This document shows, in pieces, positions 21,062-51,529 of a DNA stretch of 64,000 nt (position 1 is its first letter; every line of letters begins with the position of its first letter). The position numbers and the translations under genes are program-made. Below the pieces are notes generated by a model. That model was given only the letters and a program-made list of their open reading frames with translations. It did not search any database and had not been told where the DNA came from. The DNA comes from Craspedostauros australis (lineage: Eukaryota; Bacillariophyta; Bacillariophyceae; Mastogloiales; Achnanthaceae). Where the stretch lies: positions 806,001-870,000 of the forward strand of contig JAMXDE010000006.1 of NCBI GenBank assembly GCA_026770025.1, in the 5' to 3' direction.

Positions 21062-23608
21062 ATGCTGCGCGCTGGTGACTGTGTGAAGGTGGCATCCCAC
21101 CAGAGCTCAAGCGGCAGGGTCCATGACCTGGGCGTATGTCATGTTGATTTTGCAATGAAGCAGACCACGGACGGCGCTACAGTCAAACGCAATGGGCCTC
21201 TTGCACCAGGAGAGGTGGCAATGGTCATGGTGACCCCAGTGATGGGGCAGAGCCGAATGTATGTTGTTCGCGAGGATCTGTGCACACCACACAGCCTCGC
21301 TACCTTCGCACGGACTCGCACTGCTGGAGGCCTTGCTAAGCCTTCCCTCCTTTCTCCCCAGCATCACTCCGTCGCTGCCACGCGTGTCAACAACAAGGCT
21401 AAGCCCCCCACACCATCCCCAACTACCACAGAATCGCAAGAAGCCAAAATCGCCGCTTTTCTCGAGGTCTCGCGGCGTCAGAAAGCAACAGCAATCGCCC
21501 AGCTCACGAACCAGATGAAGAAAGGCGCGAAAACAAAAGGATGGTTGCGAAAGGATGGAGGGCATAGTATTGCTAAGCCTGGTAATCCTAGCAAGCGCCT
21601 TGACAAAGAAGACAATCGGAACTACACTGTTCTCTATTTCAATTTGGGTGGGATTCCTGAACATGCAGAGTTGATCGCCCATGCATGGGGTATCAACCGC
21701 ACCACAGTGGGGCGCAACATTGTGAAATTCCAAACGGAGACGCTCGAATGCAAGAAGCGAAGTGACGCAGGCAGCAGCATCTTCACCTGCCCCATCAAGC
21801 AACGACAGTACTTCACGCAGCGCGCAGCCTTTGAGAAACAACTACGTCTTCGACATCCAGAGCAACAGTTCAAGAACGACGAAATTGCTTCTGCCTATGC
21901 CTCTGCTTCGCTGGAAGAGCTGGCATCCGCAAAAGCGCTGGCTGATTTGTGGTTGGAGCGTGGTCCCTTCCTGCAATTTGAGCTCCAGGATGTGTTGCGA
22001 CGGTGCAATGGCGCAATCTCGTGGGACAGAATTGCATGGAAACTGGCAGGCAGCGGAAACCCGCAAGTCGTTGGTCCGAAGTGTATTCGCAAATTCGTCA
22101 TGGGATTGGAAGGCAGTGAGTACCGTTCTACAACAATACTCCCTCTGATCAATGGCACCACTACAGCAAAGCGCGACATCTGGGCTCAGGACTTCTGTGT
22201 GTTCTGGGAATCAGCTGAGCTGTTTGAGAATACGCAAGTTGTCCTTGTCCACATGGACGAAAAGTGGTTCTACTCCATTGTCGCTCGCATGCATCTGAAA
22301 CATGTGCCCCAGATGGGAGTTAAGCCTGTGAAGCAGACTGTGCATCACAAGTGTCACATTGACAAGACCATGGCAATTGCATCAACAGCATTTGCCCCAA
22401 CAAATAACTGTTTTGCGAAAGGAGGAAAGGCGTATAAGGTGAACTTCGAACGTGTTGGGCGCATGGTCCGAGCGCAGAAGACCACGTACAAGCGAACTTG
22501 GGTCTCGCCGACCAAGTACAAGCACCTTCCTGATCCCGAGAAAATCTCTCGCAAGAAGGGTGAACTGTACTTCCAACCACTGGAAATCACGGGCAGCAAG
22601 GAAACAGATGGTCATCGTGTTAAGCCCAAGCCGAAGTACAGCCTCAAGAAATTCTTCCGCGAAAAAGAACTCCCCGCACTGGATTCGCTCGCCAGCAAAA
22701 TCAAGGCCGAAACCGGAAAGAACGTGGTGATTCGGTACCAGATGGATGGCGCAGGGCCACACAGAGACACGGAGCTACTTAGATTCATCAACAAGGAGTT
22801 CGACAGTCGCGGATGGCACTTACGACTGCAACCACCAAATTCTCCCATCACGAATGTGAAAGACGATGCGATATTCCCAGCGATGTCAAAACACGTGTCA
22901 GCATATCAAGGTGAGCACCATGGAAGCCGATTGCTTACCACTGAGGCATTGTGGAATGCTTGTGGAACCTGTTGGAAACAATTCAAGCTGGACAAGGTGG
23001 CTAGCGCGTATGTTCGCCACCATCAGATTGCCTACGCAATTTGTGCTGCAAAAGGAGGTGACGAATTTGTGACGGAGCGCAAGGGACTGCACATGAATGT
23101 GCGGAAACAAACGTCCACGGAATTCGACAAAGAGGGCAACAAGATCGGCGTTACCGTGTCTCACACGGACTTCGTGTTGGAGGAGGATGAGGCTACCCGC
23201 GCGACCACCAACAAACCAACTGCAACAGACAACAAAGGCAAATCAGCTGACTTCAAATACGCCAAGCCCGACATCAAAGGTATGTACGATGATGCGCTCA
23301 AGGTGATGGCTGTCAGTGGACTGCAGTGCCTGAAAACGAATCTGCCAACAACCAGCAGCCTCATTCCGTTGCTGGAGAAGCAAATCGTTGCGACAACCAG
23401 AGCCAACGAGGAGGCTGAGCAACAGAAGAAAGACGAGAAGAGAAAGAAGCAACCCAGCAAGAGCAAAGCCGACATCATTGAGCCTTGCAACAACAACAGC
23501 AAAGCCAAAGCAGCACCCACCATGAACACATTCGAAGTGGCCATGTTCGTTGGCAAGGACGAGCATCACAGCAAAGCAGAGCAGGATACCAACACAGCAG
23601 AGATGTAG
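21062..23608 (+). CDS. Tc1/mariner-type transposase, 848 aa
   Basis: The catalytic core is recognisable: HMDEKWFYSIVARMH (first Asp, residue 399), YQMDGAGPH (second Asp, 562) and QPPNSPITNVKDD (third Asp, 601), the layout of plant and protist mariner-like elements, whose last two acids are about 39 apart. Upstream, residues about 195-300 include a helix-turn-helix-like segment (ELIAHAWGINRTTVGRNIVK). The protein is far longer than usual (350-500): the first 190 residues are an added, basic, partly low-complexity part, about 160 residues separate the first two Asp, and a Lys-rich tail follows. The frame is undamaged, so it may be active or domesticated. I do not see terminal inverted repeats or a clean TA duplication around it. 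Confidence 0.85.
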   Translation: MLRAGDCVKVASHQSSSGRVHDLGVCHVDFAMKQTTDGATVKRNGPLAPGEVAMVMVTPVMGQSRMYVVREDLCTPHSLATFARTRTAGGLAKPSLLSPQHHSVAATRVNNKAKPPTPSPTTTESQEAKIAAFLEVSRRQKATAIAQLTNQMKKGAKTKGWLRKDGGHSIAKPGNPSKRLDKEDNRNYTVLYFNLGGIPEHAELIAHAWGINRTTVGRNIVKFQTETLECKKRSDAGSSIFTCPIKQRQYFTQRAAFEKQLRLRHPEQQFKNDEIASAYASASLEELASAKALADLWLERGPFLQFELQDVLRRCNGAISWDRIAWKLAGSGNPQVVGPKCIRKFVMGLEGSEYRSTTILPLINGTTTAKRDIWAQDFCVFWESAELFENTQVVLVHMDEKWFYSIVARMHLKHVPQMGVKPVKQTVHHKCHIDKTMAIASTAFAPTNNCFAKGGKAYKVNFERVGRMVRAQKTTYKRTWVSPTKYKHLPDPEKISRKKGELYFQPLEITGSKETDGHRVKPKPKYSLKKFFREKELPALDSLASKIKAETGKNVVIRYQMDGAGPHRDTELLRFINKEFDSRGWHLRLQPPNSPITNVKDDAIFPAMSKHVSAYQGEHHGSRLLTTEALWNACGTCWKQFKLDKVASAYVRHHQIAYAICAAKGGDEFVTERKGLHMNVRKQTSTEFDKEGNKIGVTVSHTDFVLEEDEATRATTNKPTATDNKGKSADFKYAKPDIKGMYDDALKVMAVSGLQCLKTNLPTTSSLIPLLEKQIVATTRANEEAEQQKKDEKRKKQPSKSKADIIEPCNNNSKAKAAPTMNTFEVAMFVGKDEHHSKAEQDTNTAEM

Positions 23609-38151: not shown

Positions 38152-39760
38152 ATGCATACACATCCGAGTACACACATTCCGACAGCAAACCGCGGCGCAG
38201 CGCCGCCTCCTCCAGCAGCGGGGAACAACAGATCGGGCATCTTCGACGAAGATGACAGCGACGGAACTGAAGATCATCCGGACGACAGCTTCAACCCAAA
38301 CGAGCGTGTCGTCTACCCAGGGAACATCGACTTCCCACCTATTGAGGATCCCAACAGCGTCGACTACCTCCTCCGTCACAGCACCATCCCAAATGCAACA
38401 GCAACAGCATTGATAATCCAAAAGCAGCTCATCTTTGACGCCGTAATGGAAGCGGGGATGCGACTGTTCTCAGGAACCGCACGAGGAGTACTCAGACCGA
38501 TATGGGTGAACATGATGGGATCCATCCTATCCGAGCACTTCGAATCAATCGAAGAGATCCTCGTCAATGCGATCATCATCAACCGCATACTGGAAGCGAA
38601 CAACTCAGAAACGATCCCAGAGACGGATCTACATTACATCCTTGGAGGATGCATGCGCGTGCTCTTACGCGAGCGATCACGCGTCCACCCATACGATCCT
38701 GTCACAGGATCACATCGAAGCAACACGATCCCATCGGACTACGCACAACTACCCAACGACATGGATGACGGAGACCATCATCATCCATACAACGAAAATG
38801 GAGTCCACGAAGACGACGATGACGGCAGCTTCAACGACGAGATAGCTGCGGCAGCCGTGGAGCAGCTCCACGAGCTGAGCACCAGATACAAGGACAAGGT
38901 CAACAAGGACACCTGGCTCGCCGACAGCGGAGCTTCGTGTCACATCGTTAACTCGGACGCCGCTCTCTTCAACGTGCGGCACATCAAGTCCTTCATCCAA
39001 GTGGGAGACAGCACGAAGCTGGATTCTCCCAAGATGGGATCCATTCGCTTGAAAGTCAAACAGCGAGACAACACTGGCCACATCATCCGACTTGATGACG
39101 TGAAGTACACACCGAAAATGGCGGTGAACCTTTTCTCTACGAACAAGGCTCTGTACAACAGTTACCAGCTTGGTAACAATGGCATCCTGATGGACATCAT
39201 CAACGGATCCGGAACGAAGATCGTATTCGACCGAGTCTTCCCCACATCCAACGGATTCATCACGGGAGTGCAGATGCATCCCATCATGCCAACAGACGAC
39301 GACAAGGCTTGCACAGCCATCGTCAAGAATCCATCCAAGGAGATCAGCGCGGTGAACCTGCACCGAATGCTCGGCCACGCGCCACTCAAGACCATGAAGC
39401 GGACGGCCGCTCAATACGGATGGAAGATTATCGGCGAGATGCCGGTATGTCGCGACTGCGCGGTCGCGAACGCAAGAGTGAAGAACATCCCGAAGGCAAC
39501 CATTCCAAGAGCAACTCGCCGTGGCGAACGGCTCTTCATTGACATTAGTTACACTAAACACATAAGCTTCGGAGATAAACGCTACTGGACCCTGATCGTG
39601 GACGACTGCACGGATCACTGCTGGAGTTTCTTTCTCAAGAACAAGAGTGACCAACCAGAGTACATCAAACGATTCGTTCAAACGATCAAGTCACAGACTG
39701 GTGACCAACAGATCATCTTCCGAGGTGACAACAGCGGAGAGAACAAATCCACGCAGGATA
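38152..39760 (+). CDS. Copia A pol, part before the DNA insertion
   Basis: Carries the aspartic protease motif (WLADSGASCHIV) around residue 258, then the GAG-pre-integrase zinc segment (LHRMLGHAPLKTM, later CRDCAVANARVKNIP) and the start of the integrase core (RLFIDISYTKHISFGD, then VDDCTDHCW). It ends where the DNA element begins. Confidence 0.88.
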
Positions 39761-42459
39761 TCCACGGTGATTTTTTGTTGCGTCAGGACGCAAAATCGAC
39801 GTTTTTTGTCTCCTGACGCAAAAGTACCCGGATGGATAAAATTTGTTGCGCCAGGACGCAAAATTGAATTTAACGTGGAGATTTAACACGGGGCGAAAAA
39901 TGGTGTGACTCACTCGAACACTCGTAAAAAAATCGTTCGCTGTCGTCATTTGTCGCCTGTGCTTTGGGACAAATACAGTGTGTTTTACCGTGTTGTTTTG
40001 TACTGATGGATGCAAATCTTATCTGCGCTCCACATCCAGCAACAATAGTATCGAAACAACTCTCTGAATGTTGCAATGCATATATTAGTGATTTATGTGT
40101 TGTACATTGCCTTATTTACCTCGTGCATGCTCTCCTGCTTGCGAAGAGGAGAAAAGGAGCCAGGTATGTTTATCGGGCTCTGTCGTCCTCCTTCCTGTTG
40201 TGATCCTACCACTCTCCTTGCCAGCTTGGCTGCCTATGTTTGATACTTCTGTGTTCAAAGAGTGCTTCCAGTCACCCATCAGCTCCGTGCTGTCTGTGGA
40301 GTTGGTTGAGGCACACACTTCGTGCCTTCGGCACGACGATTCGCCTCTGTACATTGACCATCAACCACTTGTTTGTCACGCAAGTACAAGGCTCTCGTTC
40401 ATTTTGTATCGCTTCAAATCAAAAGGGATGCTCCTTCATTTGTCCTCACACTTGTGCTTACCAGATTTGGACTTCCAACACTCAGCGCATCCCCGCCGCA
40501 AACAGGGTCGCAGGCAAGAGCTCGCACCATCGAAGGCATGAATGTCCTTCCTGTGCGGAGTTCAGTTCCAAGACCACATGAGGCATACATACAAGAGAAG
40601 CATATCATGTTTGCCAGTGTGCGCATCCGCACCATTGTCAAATGAGCCCCCTTTGGTTGGCAGAAGCTAATGTGTGGGGTGGTGACTGCATTCTTGGCGG
40701 CCATATTTGTTGCCAGAATCTGGATGAATCTGATTGCCGTCCTGCTATCAAATATGTACATCTTCTTATTCATGTTAAGAAGAACAATAATAAGTCACTG
40801 AATGTCCTCCGCGTACAAAGTTACCTTGAAGGCTTTAGTGTTGGCCGCCTACAACGAGCCTAGGGCCGATTGCGCTGAAACGACTTCCCTGTGTCTCTCA
40901 CTGCCTAGCCTACCACGATTTGTCAGCACCATGGGCCATCAAACATACCGCACTGGGCATCCAACTTGCGCCCACTATGCTCTTTCACGAACCTCATGCA
41001 CTGATCCGTGCTCCATATTGTTGCTTGTTTGCCCTTCCTCCCAAGGCCCTGTATAACTGTCGTTTGCGCAGACCCATTTCTCGTCACTGCACTCTCACGG
41101 CGTGTGTGAGTCCTTGGCGTACTCCTCTTCTCTCCTGCGTTGCTGCATGTTGTTGCTGCTCAACTGCCTGGGCCCTTATCCGTGCTGCTTGCACATGCTT
41201 CACTCACTGGCTCTGAGCATCCACTGGCCAGGTCACCACCTCCACTCTCGCCGCATTCGTCATGAGGGCTTGGTCTGTGGCCAGGATACCTCCGCCTCCG
41301 ATCGCCCATTGCTCGTTCACCCTGGCTCATACTTCTTTTCCTGGGCTGCCGCGCGCTTGCGTCCATCCTGGTCATGTAGCACGCAGTTGCGCGCTTCCCA
41401 TGGCTTCTGTCAAACCTCCCACAGCCCTCGAATGGCTATGCCCCTCCAGTTCGCTGGCTTCATTGGGAGCTCTTCCTCCATCATCACGGACTCCTGTATT
41501 GTCCTCCACTGCCTCGCCCAGCGCCCACGCACCATCATACCCCATCCGATCACTTGTTGGGCATTGACTGCTTCTTGGATTCGCGTTGGTGCTCTTGGCT
41601 CCATGTTGTCCATGTTGCTCCAACTCCTCAGCTGGCAGAGCATCTCTTGGACCATATCTGGATCTCCTCCTACCCGAAGCATGTCATCTCCCCACTCTGC
41701 ATTCGCCTTCTCCCTCACAGAGACCGCTGCTGAATGCCAACACTGCATGACTTGCTCCGTTGTTATCTTATTCACATTTGTACTAACACATTCATGTTTC
41801 TCAATGAAGCAAGCAATCTTTGCTTGAAAGAGAAGCACATGGATGGCGATCTTGATTCGACGGGAACATCTAATGAGGTTGGGACCCAATGGAAGGAGGA
41901 AGCAACACAGATGCAGACACAAACTAAGACGCACATCTCACCTCGCAAGGAATGAATGAGACACTGATGTCGTGTGAAGCTGCCTGGAGAGGCACAGAAT
42001 GACGTGGAGGAAGAACGGAAAGGACCGCAGGTCCCATTGGCACACGAAGAAAAACAAGTAATCGAAGAGACATGAACACACGGAAAGCTAAAGAAAGCAC
42101 CACAGTTACGGCATCATAGTAGTGCAATTACTGATATGGTACCAACAAACTAGAGTTGGTATCTTCATGATCACTGCAAACGACAGCATCCTCTAGAGTA
42201 TGTGCTTGATGCAGAGAACACTGAACACTGCGCGAAAATAACACGAGACAAGAGCTAAGAAAATAACACGAAGGAAATCCACACAAGAAGGAGAGAGTTT
42301 TGTGGCGCTGAGTCCAACAAGTCGACGTAATTTATCCCTCGTGTTAAATTGTCGCACTAATTCTCCATTTGCGTCCTGACGCAAAAGTTCGAAAATTGTC
42401 TCGAAATTTGCGTCCTGACGCATCTTGGGTCCATTATCGCGACGAAAAATCACCGTGGA
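39761..42459. mobile_element. TIR DNA element 1 (2.7 kb) with palindromic subterminal units
   Basis: TA lies on both sides (39759-39760 and 42460-42461) within ATAT. The ends are inverted copies: TCCACGGTGATTTTT at the left and its complement at the right. Palindromic 16-mers lie just inside: TTGCGTCAGGACGCAA at 39778-39793, a one-base variant at 39846-39861, and inverted forms at 42369-42384 and 42408-42423. The interior has no recognisable transposase. It carries, on the minus strand, a LINE polymerase-tail-like frame (41410-41934); the rest is unassigned. TA use suggests a Tc1/mariner-like or related integration mechanism. See also element 2 at 47339. Confidence 0.8.
41410..41934 (-). pseudogene. 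LINE polymerase-tail-like fragment inside DNA element 1
   Basis: The minus-strand frame includes KITTEQVMQCWHSAAVSVRE, like the zinc-knuckle end of a non-LTR polymerase, then VIGWGMMVRGRWARQWRTIQ and a segment ending NWRGIAIRGLWEV, followed directly by a stop after which the same frame would read QKPWEARNCVLHD. The pattern parallels the fragment at 1329-1940. Assignment by memory of the family; no polymerase core is present. Confidence 0.4.
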
Positions 42460-45292
42460 TATTCTCATCGATGCAAGACTGAACGTGAAATTCGAATTCA
42501 CGGCATCGAACACGCCGCAACAGAACAGCAGAGTGGAACGCAAGTTCGCGTACCTCTACACCAAGATCCGCTCCATGCTCAACGGAGCACAGCTCGACGA
42601 AGAGTATAGGCATGGCCTGTGGGCAGCAGCTGCTAGCACTGCCACTGTCATCGCCAATATCACCGTAGCGAAGAACCAGAAGGAGTCACCACATCGACAA
42701 TTCTTCGGAAACGATCCACCATACGCGGATGCACTCCGCACATTTGGAGAAGTGGGTGTTGTGAAGACTACCTACGGCGGGATTACCGCCAAGCTCAAGA
42801 ACAGAGGAGAAGAGATGGTGTTCATCGGATATGCACACCAACACGCATCAGGGGTCTACAACATGTACAGACCATCGACCAAGTCACTCATCTGTTCACG
42901 GGACATCAAGTGGCTCAACCAATCATACGGACAGTTCCGTGGCTGGACACCAGCACCGAACATATCCAACGAAACAGGAACAACGGACGCAGACGGCTTC
43001 ACAACCATCGGACGGAAGGGAGCAACGCCAAGGACGGCAACGCGTCAAACATCCGAAGCGAAGAGAGTATCTTTTGCTGACAGCAACAGATACTACATCC
43101 TATCAGACAGCGATGATGAGGATAATGAGGACAACGGAGTAGTAACTCAACTAATCCAGAATGACGAGGAAGATCGGAGCGAATCCGATCATGAGGATGA
43201 CGAGATCCTACCATCCGGCGACGAAGCCGATGATGACGCAGGCGTCACCCCTCCGAATACACCAGCGAGGTCTACACATGACACACCATCCAGACCTCCA
43301 CCGAGCAAACCAAGCAAGCGTGACATAGCTAGAAAGGAGAGAATCCGACGTCACGAAGCACGAGGCAGGAAGGGAGAAGTCAATCCCAAGTCAACTGCAG
43401 GGAAGAGTATTCCCAGAGCTCTGCGCGAGCTCGCAGACTTCAACGAACGAGGTCAAAAGGAAGAAGGTTATGAGAGCGATTCATCATCCAATGAGGCGAG
43501 TGACGAACTCAGCGACAAGATGATCGATGATTCCAACAACGAAACTACAGATGATGAAGAAATCGAAGACGAAGATGAAGAGATCGAGATCACTCACCAT
43601 AGCACAACTGGATTATACGGGATGAATGCAATCATCACCGAGAGGCCAGCGATCGACATCGGATTGTCGATGCAGGACGAGAACAAGGAACCAGAGAAGC
43701 ACATCGAACCAACGACATTCGATGGAGCCTTCAATCATCCAGATCCCATCCATCGAAAGGGATATCGAGCAGCCATCAAGAAGGAGTTCGACTCCATGGA
43801 CACACGCAAGGTGTACAGCAAGATCAAACGAGACGCCATCCCACGCGGCCGCAGATGCTGCAAGTGCAAATGGGTCTTCAAGCTGAAGCGTGACGGCACA
43901 CATCGAGCGCGGCTCGTTGCATGTGGCTATTCACAAGTCGCAGGAGTAGACTTCCAAGAGCATTACTCACCCGTCATCCATGACGTGACCTATCGGGTCA
44001 TGATGGTGATCATGCTGATCAAGAAGATGGACTGCGCACTCGTCGATGTCGTAACGGCATTCCTACATGGAGACCTCGACGAGGAGATCTACATGAACTG
44101 TCCCAATGGGATGGATCATCAACCAGACGAAGCCCTGACCCTACACAAGCCAATCTACGGACTTGTGCAGAGCGCCAGGCAATGGTTCAAGATGCTGGTA
44201 TCGACCCTCAAGAATATCAACTTCGAACAGAGCGCAGCAGACCCGTGTCTGTTCCACAGGAAGACGAACGAAGGAAGCATGATCGTGGCCATCTACGTGG
44301 ACGATTGCTTCTGTTGCGGAGACTCCAAGGCACTGGAGACATTCCTGAAGGATATCCAAGGCAGCAAGTTCAAGGTGACAATCGAGCGCGGACTCGGAGA
44401 CTACCTCAGCTGCAACATCGAACTGAACCATGACAAGACTAGAGCGACATTGCGTCAACCACATCTCATCCGACACCTCATCGAAGAGTTCGGAACCAAA
44501 GTTGAGAAGATGCAACGCTATGGGACACCGGGAACCCCGGGTCAAATCATTGTACGACCATCCGAAGATAACGGACTGCAGAAGGTCGGACCGGAAGAAC
44601 ATGCCGAGTATCGCCGAGGCGTCGGTATGCTACTCTTCCTCATCAAGCACTCGCGACCAGATATCGCGAATCCTGTGAGAGAACTCTCCAAGGTATTGAT
44701 CGGGCCCACCAAGGCCGCAATGAAGGAGATGTATCGGATCATCAAGTATGTGATCGATACAAAGGACTATGGATTGAAGATCCATCCAGCGCGTCCAGAC
44801 GACGACGGCTGGGACATGGAGCTCTTCTGCGATAGCGAATATGCAGGAGACAAAAACACGAGAATCAGCGTAGGAGGGTTCATCCTATACCTGTGCAAGG
44901 TACCAATCCTTTGGCGATCCAAAGCACAGAAGGCTGTCACACTCAGCTCATCCGAAGCAGAATACGTTGCCCTTTCCGAAGCGGCAAAGGAAATCTTCTT
45001 CGTCGTGCAGCTACTCGAAAGTGTGGGCGTCCCAGTGAAGACACCGATCAAGGTCCGTGTGGACAACATCGGAGCAATCTTCATCGCCAAGAACCCATCA
45101 ACATCCCAACGATCGCGGCACATCGACGTGCGCCATCACTACGTGAGGAACATGGTAATCAACAAAACCATCGAAATCATTTTCGTCAAATCCGAGCAGA
45201 ACACAAGCGACGGATTCACCAAGAACATCAAGGCCGACTTACAACGCGAACATGAGAAGTCGTACCTTGACACATCGAGAACATTCGAATGA
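42460..45292 (+). CDS. Copia A pol, part after the DNA insertion
   Basis: Begins with the end of the integrase core (TASNTPQQNSRVERKFAYLY, catalytic Glu in the V-E-R context), then a variable acidic linker. The reverse transcriptase includes CALVDVVTAFLHGDLDEEIY and the YVDD box (AIYVDDCFCCGD). RNase H follows with FCDSEYAGDKNTRISVGGF and VTLSSSEAEYVALSEAAKE, the typical copia signature. It ends at 45292, about 20 bases before the 3' LTR. Confidence 0.9.
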
Positions 45293-45312
45293 CCGAATGC
45301 ACACAGGAAGGG

Positions 45313-46103
45313 TGTCGAGATGTACATGTGAGTATATGTCAAGATGTACGTGTATATGTGCATCGTTCACCCGCTATTCTCTCATACGCACTTGGACGGT
45401 ATAACTATACTCGTGTCGATAGTATTCTGTGATTCGTCAGAATTACAGGGGAAATGGAACACACGAAAAGGGGCAAGATTTCTGGAGGAAATTTGCAAAT
45501 AACGATTTCTGGGAGAATCAGAAGATCGTCCGTCCATGCATCAATGGTACCAAGAGAATCTCGAGGTACTTCCCAACTAAACCTCAGATGACGATATCAT
45601 CTGACAGGCTACTGCATCACCAATGGAACATGACATCTGGAGAGCAGAAGGACGCCTACTGACGTCGACAGGATGTCAACATGTCACCACGTTGACAGCT
45701 GTCTCCAAGTCAGAGCAGGAGGCGAAGATGCAATGACCCATGAAGATCATGGATACTGAAGGTGAACTTCAAATGGTAAGTACTCATGGAGTAGGAACCA
45801 GTACTGAACGAACGGAGTGTCGAATGCGGAGTACGCATCGAACACGGAGTATCGTGTAACACGAGTACACGATGTTGAGAGAGAGAGCGAGAATACAGAG
45901 AGGAGCGAGAGAGGATCTCGCGTACCGACTCATAGTCGGAGACTGAATCTACGAAACAGATTGAAGCGCCGAGAGCATCGGGCAAGACAACTGGTGTACA
46001 CCGAGAGGATCGGAGTAACCAAGTAATGAAATAGCAAACAGACGACTATCAACCAATACCATCTTCCACGATTGTAGGTTACCATGAGCGGAACTTGCCA
46101 ACA
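45313..46103 (+). repeat. 3' LTR of copia A
   Basis: 791 bases matching the 5' LTR except for about a dozen substitutions. Followed by ATGATT, which also precedes the 5' LTR. Confidence 0.93.
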
Positions 46104-46900
46104 ATGATTCATGACGTCAGCACAACACACATGTCTGACAGAAAGGAAGATGCAATTCACATCGTCGCATTCGAAGAGCGCCACGCACAGGCGGTAGGCT
46201 TGATCCACAGCATTGGGATCAGATGCTCCTCGGAGATCAACGAGTCCACCAACAAGTGGTTTTCTGACAACATTGTCACCATGAGCAGCAACATGATACA
46301 GGATGCAAACGGGGAATACGTGGACGTCGAGACAGAAGAAGAGATGGACTTTCTCTTGGACGAAGGATTCGGCAACGTAGTCATCGAAGGTATCAACATC
46401 ATGGAGAGAGACAACAAGGCGCCAAAATGCAAGAAGGCAAGGCTGGAGGACGAAAGCTTCAAGATCTTTGGAACGGAATACGGGAAGTCAGCGGCATCAT
46501 CAAGATACACAATCCCTGAGTCACAGACAGCAGTAGATGAAAGAGAAGCGATCGAAGCAGAATTGGAAGAAGCAATGCGAATGGCAAGAGAAACTCAAGA
46601 ACTGGAGGCAAGCCGTGCTTGAGTGCAAGAGCAGAAAAGCACGACCACCAACTAAGAAGCAATCATAGCGGCTCTGCGTGCCCAACTGGCGGCGTCCGAA
46701 GCCCAGCCACCTGCCTCAAGCAAGGGCGGGGGCGAGGGCTAAGAATAATGATAGGCTGGGGGCAGGCAAAGCATTGTCAACCACCCCTGCAAGCCCAACA
46801 GATGCAAACCCAGAGGAAAGGCGCTGGGAAGGGCCAGACCTCCTCGACAAGCAGTGGGGAGATTCTATGCGCACCAAGGGTGGCACTATGATATGTGTTG
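46104..46900 (+). pseudogene. LINE-ORF1-like coding remnant, right part
   Basis: Coding-like sequence resumes at the end of copia A. The open piece to 46,624 includes DAIHIVAFEERHAQAVGLIH and an acidic helix-rich end (DEREAIEAELEEAMRMARET). After stops the same frame still reads like protein (AALRAQLAASEAQPPASSKG) to about 46,740. Its strand agrees with the part left of copia A. Sequence from 46,900 to 47,124 is unassigned. Confidence 0.45.
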
Positions 46901-47338
46901 GAAATCCAGGGTGGCGATGATAGTAGAAAGTGAATCATTTGCTAGAATCTACTTCTCTGAACTGTGAGCTCTTCATTGCTCTCAATCTCAAAGTCCAATC
47001 TCCTCCTGAGATCTCCATGGGTCCCTCTGTTGATCTAGCATGCATCCATCTTGCATTCATTGCAAATTCATCATGGACATGCATGCACCACTGAGTACCC
47101 CATATCCGTGAACACAAGCACGTTTGTCGAGATGTACATGTGAGTACATGTCGGGATGTACGTGTATATGTGCATCGTTCACCCGTTATTCTCTCATACG
47201 CACTTGGACGGTATAACTATACTCGTGTCTATAGTATGCTGTGATTCGTCAGAATTACAGTGGAAATGGAACACACGAAAATGAGCAGAATTTCTGGAGG
47301 AAATTTGCAATCGACGATTTCTGAGAGAATTGGAAATA

Positions 47339-50300
47339 TCCGTAAGGAAAGTTTCGGTCCTCAGGAGGACATTTAGTGCTATCTGTCCTCCTGAGGACAT
47401 TTATTTTTGACATGCATCGTAACTGTCCTCAGGAAGACAGAAAACTTATCTGTCCTCCTGAGGACATTTAATTTTGGCGTTTGACTGGTTGGAACACGTA
47501 TCCACGACACAAATTATGAGTGTCGCGACAATTCATCGCGTTGTGGCTGGTGCCATCTGCTCCGTTCTTTTTGCCATCTGCACATCCACACGCCAATCTG
47601 TTCAATAGTATTCCAGAATATTATTCTATATTATTATATTATATTATATTATACAACATCTGCTTTCAGTTGCATCACTTACGGGTGTTGGGGGGATCTC
47701 TAATTGTGTTCTGGAACTTGTGTGTCCTGGTTATGTTTCCTCTTTCATCAACGGAGCCATGTAACTGTGTGTCCATTCTTAAAAAGCTTGGTTGATTTCT
47801 CGTTGTTGCGATAGAGGACTCTCGCACTCCGCTCAGCCCTTCACAAGCAAGCCTGCAAGGGAGCCACAGCCCGATAGCCACACCTTTCGAGGGGTGGCAT
47901 CAGAGCTTCTCCCTTGGCGCAAGCCGAATAGATTTAAGTTCGTGCGCTCCAAGCTGATATGTTCTAAGCTTGCACAGTTCCGGCAAACTAGCAGCTCCAT
48001 GCGTTAACCGAACATTAGCCAATCATGGTACTTTATTCTGCGTTGTTTTATTGTTCTTGTCGTCTTCATTGCTCCATGCTTGTCACTGGGCTATCTCATT
48101 TGCATTCCATTTCAAACCACGACGTCAAGGAGAACCACTGCAACACATCCATGCCATGGGATTACATTGCCTCACATGCTTCCTCTGCATCATCCGCATC
48201 ATCCACACCACTCTATGCTTATGCTTTCCTCTGATCCACACCCACCTACAACAGCCAATTCATCCATACCCCACCCCACTGTACATCTTCTTGCCAAATC
48301 AACAACAAGCCACATTCTTCCATCATTGATCCATCCCATCCTTTCGATTATCTCTCCACCCCTCGCCTCAACAACAACAGTGACCATCCTGATGGGACTG
48401 CAGCGCAGTCTCCCGCGCCATCCACTTGCACGATACAACCACCTTCCTACGCCGACGACGTGAAGCAGCCACCAACCATCACATGGTGTCCCAATGCATT
48501 CATGTTGGTGCAGTCTCCTCAGGATGCAGGTGTTGCCTACACGGAATGCAACAACAATGAATCCCGCACTATGTCTGTCACTGATGGCTTACCCTGTACA
48601 ACGCTGCCATCTACGGACCAGACGAACAACAAGAGGGCATGCCATTGCAAGAAGCCGCCAGCTCCTCCTACCTCAGTCTTCAAAATTGTGACGGTTGGTA
48701 GCAACAGTAGTCAGCCCACTTCATGGCCTGATCCCACCACCACTGTTGGCAAGGCCGCATAGCGTTTCCCTCCAATGTACTACAAACTGAAGGGAAAGGT
48801 GGACTGCTTGCCTTGGCTGCACATACTGCAACCATGCAACAGAATCCCCATGAATGTGATGACCAGGCTTCCAAACAAGCCATGGATACCACTCATTGGC
48901 ACAGCATGGACAATCATCTGCAACGAACTACACCAGCAGAACTCCACGGTGTTGCTGAATATGCCACAAGAGTCCGCATTGGCCAACCAATTCCATAACT
49001 TCCTGGAGCTCACCAAAACACTCCTGAAGCGCACCCCTTGCTGCAGCGGCATGACGGAGAATATGAAGCAGTGGCTCGATGAGCTCACCACCCTGATACA
49101 GGAGCGCAAGGACTACGCCAAGGATTGTGTCACCTTGGAGCAAAGAGTTCAAGGACGCAATAGCATCACCAGCAAGCAAAGGTCCCACATGCTCGCCCTG
49201 CGCCCTGCAATATCAAAGGAATAGGCTGGCAAAGCCGCGCGCAAACAGAAGGCAGCAGGAAGTGAGGAGAATGCCTCATCTTTCTGCATGTCATCCACCA
49301 CAATGAAGCCTGAGAAGAAGCCACACGTGAGTATGGAACAGAAGATACAGAACACTGCAAGCCTCCTCAACAGGCTGAACAAAATCGAAACAAGCTTGCA
49401 GATTGGCTGCATGTGGCAATGCCTCCTGCTCCCACCCAAGCCGGACTTCATCCAATCATGGTGGTCTGGTCTGCTTCCCCCCTTTCAGTACCAGCTGTGG
49501 AGGCAAGCGCACACATCCACAATAGCGGCAATGGCAATGGCAACAGAAATGGCAGCAAGGACAGGGACAGTAGCAATGACAATAACAACAACAGCAACGA
49601 CAGCCAATTCATCCAGCACATGTTGAATCAGCAACAGAAAATGCACGATACATGCCACCGCTGGGAGGAGGATCGTGACAGCGTGGAGCGAGAGACTTCT
49701 CAGTTGCGCTACACCCAAGATAGGCTCTCTGCTGATATGAGGTCTCTTGCGGACCTCATGTTCCAAAACTACCACACCAGCAATGGCACTGTCAGCGGCA
49801 ATAGCAATGACAACATCAACAGCCACCGCGATGGCAACAACAACCACGATGGCAATGGCAGTGGCAGTTGCAACCGAAACAGAAACGGAAGTGACAGCGA
49901 TTCCGCAATCACTGTCTCCCAACAAGATTCAGATTGCGGTGACAGGGAATACCACAGCGGCCATGATGGACATCCTCCCCAAGTCACGAGGACGGAGTCC
50001 ACCGAATTTTTTACGAACATAGAGTGAGACAAGCATGATAACAGCAATGACGAAGACAAAGATGAAAGAACGGATGCAGCAGCTGCAACAATCAACAAGA
50101 AAAGGTCTGAACAAAACAGCCACCTCGAAAGAGAGAGAGAGATACATTAGAAATCTGCATTGGCATTATAATGAAGAGATGCGGCGGAAACTGGAATGAA
50201 AGAAAGAATTGCAAATGGGGTAGAACGTAGTTGCAGTGGAAGACAAGTTAAACACAAAACGCAAACGCATCCGCTAAGAAAAGACTGTAAAATAGACGTA

Positions 50301-50659
50301 GCCAAGCTTGTCGGACAGCAGACACACATTAGTATGATTTTGTTGACGCAGAAGGAGACAAAACTAGACCAAGCAAGTACCGCGATGCAAGTGGAGGTGC
50401 GCTAACACCCAGAACAAGCGCACAGAAAAGAACGAAGCAGATGGCGCCAGCCAACAACGCGATGAATTGTCGCGACACTCATAATTTGTGTCGTGGATAC
50501 GTGTTCCAGCCAGTCAAACGCCAAAATTAAATGTCCTGAGGAGGACAGATAGTTTATCTGTCCTCCTCAGGACAGTTGTGGGAAAAACATTGACAGGAAG
50601 CGATAAATGTCCTCCTCAGGACATTTACGAAAACGCCCACACAAATTTTTCCTTACGGA
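47339..50659. mobile_element. TIR DNA element 2 (3.3 kb) with palindromic subterminal units
   Basis: TA lies on both sides (47337-47338 and 50660-50661) within ATAT. The left end starts TCCGTAAGGAAA and the right end is its complement; similarity between the two arms continues, with gaps, for about 240 bases. Palindromic 16-mers of the type TGTCCTCCTGAGGACA lie at 47384-47399 and 47451-47466, variants at about 47356-47371 and 47424-47439, and inverted forms at 50532-50547, 50559-50574 and 50608-50623. The interior is coding-like in places but shows no transposase. Same architecture as element 1. Confidence 0.82.
48233..50027 (+). CDS. Unidentified coding-like interior of DNA element 2
   Basis: Three plus-strand pieces look like protein. 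48233-48762 is open, without an early ATG, Pro/Thr/Ser/Asn-rich with scattered Cys (CPNAFMLVQSPQDAGVAY). 48775-49224, in another frame, has a helical segment (NFLELTKTLLKRTPCC, then MKQWLDELTTLIQERKDYAK) and continues in frame past its TAG. 49413-50027 has Asn/Ser/Gly runs around a coiled coil (QHMLNQQQKMHDTCHRWEED, then RDSVERETSQLRYTQDRLSA). Together they suggest a decayed or spliced gene with a coiled-coil tail, perhaps an accessory DNA-binding protein or a captured host gene. No domain is firmly recognised. Confidence 0.3.
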
Positions 50660-51529
50660 TATCGTCCGTCCATCCATCAATGGTACCGAGAGAATCTCGA
50701 GGCACTTCCCAACTAAACCTCAGATGACGATATCATCTGACAAACTGCTGCATCACCAATGGAACGTGACATCTGGAGAGCAGAAGGACGCCTACTGACG
50801 TCAACAGGATGTCATCGTGTCACCACGTCGACATCTGTCTCCAAGTCAGAGCAGGAGGCAAAGATCCGATGACCCATGAAGATCATGGATACAGGAGGTG
50901 AAGTTCAAATGGTAAGTACTCATGGAGTAGGAACCAGTACTGAATGAACGAAGTGTCGAATGCGGAGCACGCTTCGAACGTGTAGTATCGCGTAGCACGA
51001 AGCACGCGATGCTGAGACAGAGAGAGAGAGAATACAGAGAGGAGCGAGAGAGCATCTCGCGTACCGACTCATAGTTGGAGACCGAATCTACAAGACAGAT
51101 TGAAGCGCTGAGAGCATCGGGCAAGAGAACGGGCGTACACCGAGAGGATCAGAGTAGCCAAGTAATGAAATAGCAAACGAACGACTATCAACCAACACCA
51201 CCCTCCACGATCGTAGGCTACCAATCACGGAACCTGCCAACAGACAACCACAAGAACCACTTCATCCAACTGCGGTCTGCAATGGATTAATGGGAGTAAG
51301 GCGAATGGTGAAAGAGACGGATGGTGATAATGGATGTTATGTTGTCGATGCGACAATGGAAGGGTGTTAGGAATCGAGGGTACGACTTTGTCAGAATATC
51401 CATGATTGCCGCACCTCCCAACATTATTCATCACAGCTTTGAATATTATTCGTCACATGTTCGGAGACTATTTGTCACACCTTTATATGCCATGTCGTTA
51501 TGACTATGACTAAGGGTACGGACGTGATT

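Follow-up and report, generated by a model that had tools for sequence, protein, structure and literature searches.

Results

Elements A and B and their insertion sites

The DNA examined in this study is a stretch of 64,000 nucleotides of Craspedostauros australis (contig JAMXDE010000006.1, positions 806,001 to 870,000 of the forward strand), hereafter the window, and its subject is two DNA elements, A and B, which lie between positions 39,758 and 50,662 and have relatives elsewhere in the genome (75 Mb in 90 contigs were searched). Both elements are confirmed as real cut-and-paste DNA transposons, and both are non-autonomous. Element A interrupts the reading frame of a Copia retrotransposon, and element B lies within another repeat. 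The features are listed below in window coordinates, with a strand where one was assigned. Offsets of palindromic sites in left ends are measured from the T of TATCC, and C3 denotes a related family.

39758-39761: ATAT target copy left of A (window sequence and A paralogs without the element)
39762-42458: element A, non-autonomous, CC...GG, inside the Copia reading frame, ends matching copy L023
39778-39793: A left palindrome TTGCGT-CAGG-ACGCAA, offset 19
39806-39821: A left hybrid site TTGTCT-CCTG-ACGCAA, a C3-type half and an A-type half, offset 47
39846-39861: A left palindrome TTGCGC-CAGG-ACGCAA, one mismatch, offset 87
42369-42384: A right palindrome TTGCGT-CCTG-ACGCAA (plus-strand reading), offset 77 from the right tip
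42408-42423: A right palindrome, one mismatch, offset 38 from the right tip
42459-42462: ATAT target copy right of A (window sequence and A empty sites)
47336-47339: ATAT target copy left of B (empty site AGAGAATTGGAA-ATAT-CGTCCGTCCATC, 33 exact places)
47340-50658: element B, non-autonomous deletion derivative, CC...GG, ends matching L067 and L069
47356-47371: B left palindrome GGTCCT-CAGG-AGGACA, one mismatch, offset 19
47384-47399: B left palindrome TGTCCT-CCTG-AGGACA, offset 47
47424-47439: B left palindrome TGTCCT-CAGG-AAGACA, one mismatch, offset 87
47451-47466: B left palindrome TGTCCT-CCTG-AGGACA, offset 114
49882-50439, plus strand: remnant of the autonomous B transposase gene, its 3' end with downstream DNA (83% identity over 564 columns to L085:609-1161)
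50532-50547: B right palindrome, offset 114 from the right tip
50559-50574: B right palindrome, offset 87 from the right tip
50608-50623: B right palindrome, offset 38 from the right tip
50659-50662: ATAT target copy right of B (B empty sites)

A first-pass annotation of the window had placed the elements at 39761-42459 and 47339-50659, starting with TCC and ending with GGA, and these boundaries are borne out if the ends are read as TCC...GGA. It had also counted at least two palindromes inside each end; there are three in the left and two in the right end of A, and four and three, respectively, in B. Its remark that neither element carries a visible transposase holds insofar as both are non-autonomous, but B retains the 3' remnant of a transposase gene listed above.

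Empty sites, the comparison of which the same annotation had proposed, fit these boundaries for both elements. For A, 30 Copia loci were read among the 40 matches listed, one of them being the filled site; in 28 of the remaining 29 paralogs ATAT stands between the flanks, and in the other one ATAC. The joined flank of B with a single ATAT occurs at 122 places with up to three mismatches, 33 of them exact. Moreover, ATAT was found on both sides in all 15 flank pairs (13 loci outside the window with both tips readable, plus A and B) and at all 23 A-like right ends (up to three mismatches over 32 bases). No strong base preference was seen beyond the ATAT in 48 distinct ends, which had been chosen by having ATAT. 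Among tips found without requiring ATAT, L006 lies at ATAG and L035 in a run of C. The target is thus nearly always ATAT rather than merely TA. The TA target first proposed remains correct to the extent that insertion took place at an ATAT holding a central TA, but it is the full ATAT that recurs. Since ATAT is identical on both strands, a duplication of 2 bp (TA) looks the same as one of 4 bp (ATAT).

Two unusual tips were seen. Near base 1550 of L006, on the minus strand, a C2-like tip stands at ATAG, and the search of this locus showed no partner end. At L035:1365-1400, one ATAT is flanked by two tips in head-to-head orientation (TTTCTCCATGG-ATAT-CCATGGAGAAA), as might result from insertion next to a tip or from the joining of ends.

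Palindromic sites

The subterminal sites are strongly concentrated in the ends of the elements. Nineteen ends of seven families (A, B, C2, C3, D, E and F; a single end was read for D) contained on average 2.47 sites per 140 bp at up to one mismatch. For comparison, 5000 stretches of 140 bp drawn at random from the first 39 kb of the window averaged 0.009 sites, and not one contained two. The only one of the 19 ends without any site at this threshold was the 5' end of C3. Of the five perfect palindromes (7-bp arms, 2-bp centre) in the whole window, four lie inside A and B. Genome-wide, the exact 16-mers of A and B occur 86 and 24 times, respectively, and neither the reversed A and B patterns nor one made-up palindrome with the same centre was found in the genome.

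Across the 19 ends a site consists of a 6-bp half-site, a 4-bp centre (CAGG, GAGG or the complement) and a second 6-bp half-site. The half-site is TTGCGT in A, E and F, TTGC[AG]T in C2, TTGTCT in C3, TGTCCT in B and TGGACT in D. The difference in arms between A and B that had been pointed out earlier is therefore real; the constant centre TCAGGA, on the other hand, does not hold throughout, as some sites of B and those of D have T-GAGG-A.

The spacing of the sites is shared among the families (offsets from the T of TATCC). In the first type of end, sites lie at 19, 47-48 and 87-88 in A, C2 and E, at 19, 47, 87 and 114 in B, at 19, 47, 88 and 115 in D, and at 20, 48 and 77 in F. C3 fits least well: it has none at 19 and shows sites at 47 and 88 only if two mismatches are allowed. 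In the second type of end they lie at 38 and 77-81 in A, C2, C3, E and F, and at 38, 87 and 114 in B. The tips are CCAC, CCAT or CCGT. Families B and D have the same tip letters and offsets and differ in the half-sites at every site of the end read, and their transposases form a well-supported pair in the tree (100/99). B versus D is, judged from the sequences, the clearest case of what appears to be a concerted change of half-sites in place.

Gene-bearing copies and the transposase

The suggestion that the transposase is supplied from elsewhere agrees with the gene-bearing partners found for both elements, and a genome-wide search for members of the kind proposed in the first-pass annotation yielded many more. 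The A-type partner, L023 (C24:509763-515509), has the tips and sites of A and a three-exon gene with an open middle exon; it shares 134 bp (91%) and 170 bp (90.6%) with A at the two ends and nothing else. The B-type partner lies on C16 at about 1210182-1216682, including the ATAT copies, and is bracketed by B 16-mers (C16:1210230-1216643); its sequence was obtained in the pieces L067, L068, L085 and L069. One end of B is 93% identical to L067 over 267 columns and the other 94% to L069 over 233. The A-type and B-type transposases are homologous, with 33-34% identity. Two other copies, L017 (family E) and L019 (family F), have other tips, the half-site of A and homologous genes, each 46% identical to A in exon 2. 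A and B are presumably moved in trans by the A-type and B-type enzymes.

In all four genes compared (A, E, F and B), GT-AG borders occur at the same two positions, and gaps of 109-140 bp separate the coding blocks. LDDDKVH and a short stretch close exon 1; exon 2 contains DRGY or DRGF and finishes with a PD-(D/E)XK nuclease motif of the lambda-exonuclease/YqaJ type; exon 3 contains KGGSD and a C-terminal Cys/His cluster. Because the GT-AG borders are conserved, the nuclease motif would lie inside one protein under the predicted splicing. The spliced length is about 1,370-1,660 amino acids (aa) for A, E and B, with the ends chosen by eye and exon 1 of B incomplete. In nine divergent exon-2 proteins, the D of DRGY/DRGF is invariant (one of them reads DCGY), as are the D, E and K of the nuclease motif (ARASVDFL...VVEMKTR). 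KGGSD is present in all six exon-3 sequences covering its position, and the Cys/His cluster is conserved. LDDD, DRGY/DRGF and GGSD, the candidate residues of a DDD triad, are conserved, and the D1-D2 distance is 77 in three of the four proteins and 83 in B.

Domain searches returned partial matches. Pfam DDE_Tnp_1 (PF01609) scored above its curated cut-off in two of the four spliced D1-D2 domains (E, 4.3e-6; F, 6e-5) and in two of the nine exon-2 proteins (best 1.2e-4), and the NCBIfam lambda-exonuclease family TIGR03033 matched two of the nine exon-2 proteins (best 2.8e-4). In the Foldseek search with the exon-2 model, Tn5 was placed first and piggyBat third by E-value, and piggyBat had the highest probability (0.87) among the 50 matches listed. 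The best match of the D1-D2 domain in profile searches of the PDB (6.5e-5) was a designed ankyrin protein without a single significant stretch and was rejected.

Several further loci were noted beside these genes. C3:1191561, C13:989179 and their relatives constitute two deep groups with long open frames of about 712 and 717 aa. At C28:213397-214704 the homologous stretch lies within an open frame of 2220 aa, unlike other members. Open reading frames (ORFs) of 988 and 1080 aa at L020:3137-6100 and L034:4776-8015, with DNA about 85.5% identical, had no confident Pfam match; the large ORF of L020 is nested within a 1.7-kb copy of family F. It was considered as a second transposase of the lineage and rejected: 1.7-kb copies of the L025 type align on both sides of the insert in L020 and L018, which are therefore composites with something nested in them.

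Site types and transposase groups

The census of transposase genes gave at least 102 matches (67 of 137 candidates were scored), which were merged by eye into 62 loci. Sites were listed as exact matches for A, B and D and with up to one mismatch for C3 (100 of 101 C3 places), and the lists cover these four types and not C2. Loci were assigned to groups by their identity to A and not from a tree covering all 62; in identity, E and F (46-47%) fall within the lower part of the C3 range.

The site type of the locus's own group was found within 5 kb at 38 of the 62 loci, and none of the listed types at 23. Within this distance, exact A-type sites occur at seven loci (A, E and F), C3-type sites at 28, all with 47-53% identity to A, D sites at both D loci and B sites at the B locus. 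At 25 of the 28 C3 loci the site lies 1,923-1,944 or 531-550 bp away, as expected inside one element. None of the C3-type loci had a listed A site in its vicinity, nor did any of the A, E or F loci have a listed C3 site nearby. At C32:648828, a C3 site of its own is accompanied by a neighbouring D pair, and C62:92288, the ninth member of the 36% group, has a D pair 2.9 kb away, which apparently belongs to a neighbour, and no other listed site. The 23 loci without a listed site comprise the three C2 loci (55-57%), C8:2288738, C5:2499317, C28:213397, C60:104869, eight loci of the 33-35% group (frames of 704-785 aa) and eight of the 36% group. Taken at the level of sequence, the pattern shows what appear to be matched sets of sites and transposases, not selection.

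Discussion

Based on these results, A and B are probably non-autonomous members of two families of one divergent, piggyBac-like lineage of cut-and-paste transposons with an embedded nuclease. Its resemblance to piggyBac and piggyBat lies in the unlike ends, with palindromic sites the first of which is at nucleotide 17 of one end, in palindromes that differ between relatives, in TIRs (terminal inverted repeats) starting with CC, in an AT-only palindromic 4-bp target, and in a C-terminal Cys/His cluster, with KGGSD comparable to the GGVD of piggyBac. Counted from CC, the first site here is at nucleotide 17 in one end (offset 19) and at nucleotide 36 in the other; the C3 end has no site at nucleotide 17 at the threshold used, and F starts one base later. 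In piggyBac, a 13-bp TIR is followed by 3 bp (left) or 31 bp (right) and then by a 19-bp repeat bound by the cysteine-rich domain (CRD; PMC8151067). Between piggyBac and piggyBat, the palindromes bound by the CRD are unrelated (PMC11707139), which would provide, by analogy, a precedent for the change of arms observed here. The placing of the motifs in hhalign alignments, in register with piggyBac, is suggestive only. The relation to piggyBac is thus argued from the end geometry, the motif order and the weak placing of piggyBat by Foldseek, and not from Pfam or hhalign scores.

The differences from piggyBac are nevertheless considerable. The target is ATAT (15 of 15 flank pairs, and the empty sites) instead of TTAA, the tips are CCAC, CCAT or CCGT instead of CC[C/T]T (PMC2872659), and the present elements have three exons, a protein of about 1,370-1,660 aa, an internal nuclease motif and two to four sites per end. 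The lineage was not filed as piggyBac because the target, the Pfam result and the tip motif disagree with it.

A number of results weigh against the interpretation favoured here. The piggyBac domain PF13843 (DDE_Tnp_1_7) matched no protein scanned, and among its matches listed none overlaps the 62 loci of the lineage (checked by eye). The hhalign comparison with piggyBac and piggyBat scored 17.0 for the whole protein and 15.3 for the core; 92 of 100 column shuffles of the template, run against the core, reached 15.3 (mean 18.6), and the reversed template scored 15.1. The A and B proteins had no DDE_Tnp_1 match in the Pfam scan, and exon 2 of A had no NCBIfam match. No Foldseek match reached an E-value of 0.001, the models being poor (predicted local distance difference test, pLDDT, 54 and 45); nothing useful matched the AlphaFold model of exon 3, and only chance matches came from searching the PDB with profiles of exon 2, exon 3 and the D1-D2 domain. 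In the flanks read, the two deep groups (33-36%) had no correctly oriented tip bearing such palindromes. The agreement between sites and transposases is partly built in, as the sites were what first led to E, F, B and the copies of A and the groups rest on identity to A, and it is also expected from co-inheritance alone. The arms do not track divergence simply, since A, E and F have TTGCGT at about 46% identity and C3 has TTGTCT at 50% identity to A, and the tree is unresolved inside the group holding A, E, F and C3. The earlier idea of a palindrome changing together with its protein is supported in part, by the homologous transposases and by the arms of B and D, swapped at fixed offsets, but not by A, E and F, which keep one arm. 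As a separate observation, the canonical piggyBac domain PF13843 has at least 160 matches in this genome, several per gene.

Several other explanations have to be considered. The main rival sees the elements as diverged Sola2 transposons, a group whose duplications are AT-rich and 4 bp long, and seems unlikely. The TIRs of Sola2-type elements measure 12-13 or 21 bp, and their 4-bp duplications follow AWWT (ATAT, AAAT, ATTT; PMC3627910); the short TIRs and the ATAT found here are in line with this, provided that the duplication is of 4 bp and not 2 bp. However, the target here is nearly always ATAT, and the part of the text describing Sola2 (PMC3627910) mentions neither a nuclease nor palindromes; this is weak evidence, the comparison being with a description and not with a protein sequence. 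Relatives of ISL2EU (PHIS superfamily) would account for the lambda-exonuclease-like motif and the AT-only target, as ISL2EU elements encode a DDE transposase and a YqaJ exonuclease and insert at A|AT|T (PMC4482050). Their nuclease is mostly a second ORF and their transposase has THAP and helix-turn-helix domains (PMC4482050), whereas here the motif lies in exon 2 between the conserved introns of a spliced transposase, the Pfam scans of the proteins covered revealed neither a THAP nor a Harbinger-type domain, and the target is ATAT and not an AT duplication within AATT; this origin is clearly improbable. Elements of the Tc1/mariner type, with TA duplications and merely ornamental subterminal repeats, could be suspected from the TA central in each target and from a Tc1/mariner-looking ORF of the window at 21062-23608. 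However, the gene-bearing members encode an apparently different DDE type, the target is ATAT and no palindromes lie near that ORF; the gene-bearing copies already disfavour this explanation, which is hardly credible.

The palindromes might instead serve a host factor as binding sites or act as hairpins, their agreement with the transposase groups being mere co-inheritance. The association is what descent alone would produce and is partly built in, and binding by the transposase is proposed here by analogy. However, the sites of one end change in concert at kept offsets, as in B versus D, and sites of this kind are contacted by the transposase itself in piggyBac (PMC8151067, PMC11707139), so that this possibility is also judged to be rather improbable. 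A likeness to IS4-type transposases is seen in DDE_Tnp_1, which is above the cut-off over the D1-D2 region in E and F, but not in A and B. In that type, the third catalytic acid is part of a YREK motif. The present lineage differs in its spliced eukaryotic gene, its large insertion and its ATAT target; the IS4-type elements described in PMC3627910 have 18-bp TIRs, one of them with an 8-bp duplication.

If A and B belong to a piggyBac-like lineage, their movement could be pictured by analogy with piggyBac. A DDD catalytic core would excise the element and insert it into ATAT, and the paired C-terminal zinc modules of a dimer would bind each palindrome. The half-site would then serve as a lineage-specific address, and the centre, the distances and the ATAT target as a shared frame. 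A change of the DNA-binding module may have led to a change in place of all sites of an end, as between B and D. The embedded nuclease might process the ends or the excision break, but this is a guess.

A wider claim, which is advanced only tentatively and is about evenly balanced with slightly more doubt than belief, is that this is a new eukaryotic DNA transposon lineage at the superfamily level, in whose RNase H core a lambda-exonuclease-type nuclease separates the second catalytic residue from the third and whose zinc module has repeatedly recoded the half-site, giving five or more addresses on a fixed spacing frame in one genome. Neither a described family with this combination nor a nuclease inside a piggyBac-like transposase reading frame was found in the literature searched, which did not cover Repbase itself. 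Among viral contigs and bacterial and archaeal genomes, 59 and 20 pattern-matching stretches, respectively, included no true relative. The families constitute a natural series within one genome, in which the transposases are related, the spacing frame is common and the palindromes differ. The series makes it testable how a transposase shifts its end recognition yet keeps its target, and whether families become mutually exclusive.

Other reading frames of the window

The ORF at 21062-23608 (plus strand, 848 aa) had no Pfam match and contains the motifs DEKWFY and QMDGAGPH, which we take to be Tc1/mariner-looking. It was considered as a helper transposase and set aside, as no such palindromes lie nearby. 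In keeping with a photosynthetic stramenopile, probably a diatom, the ORFs of the window also include what we take to be Copia elements and proteins with plastid-targeting-like N-termini.

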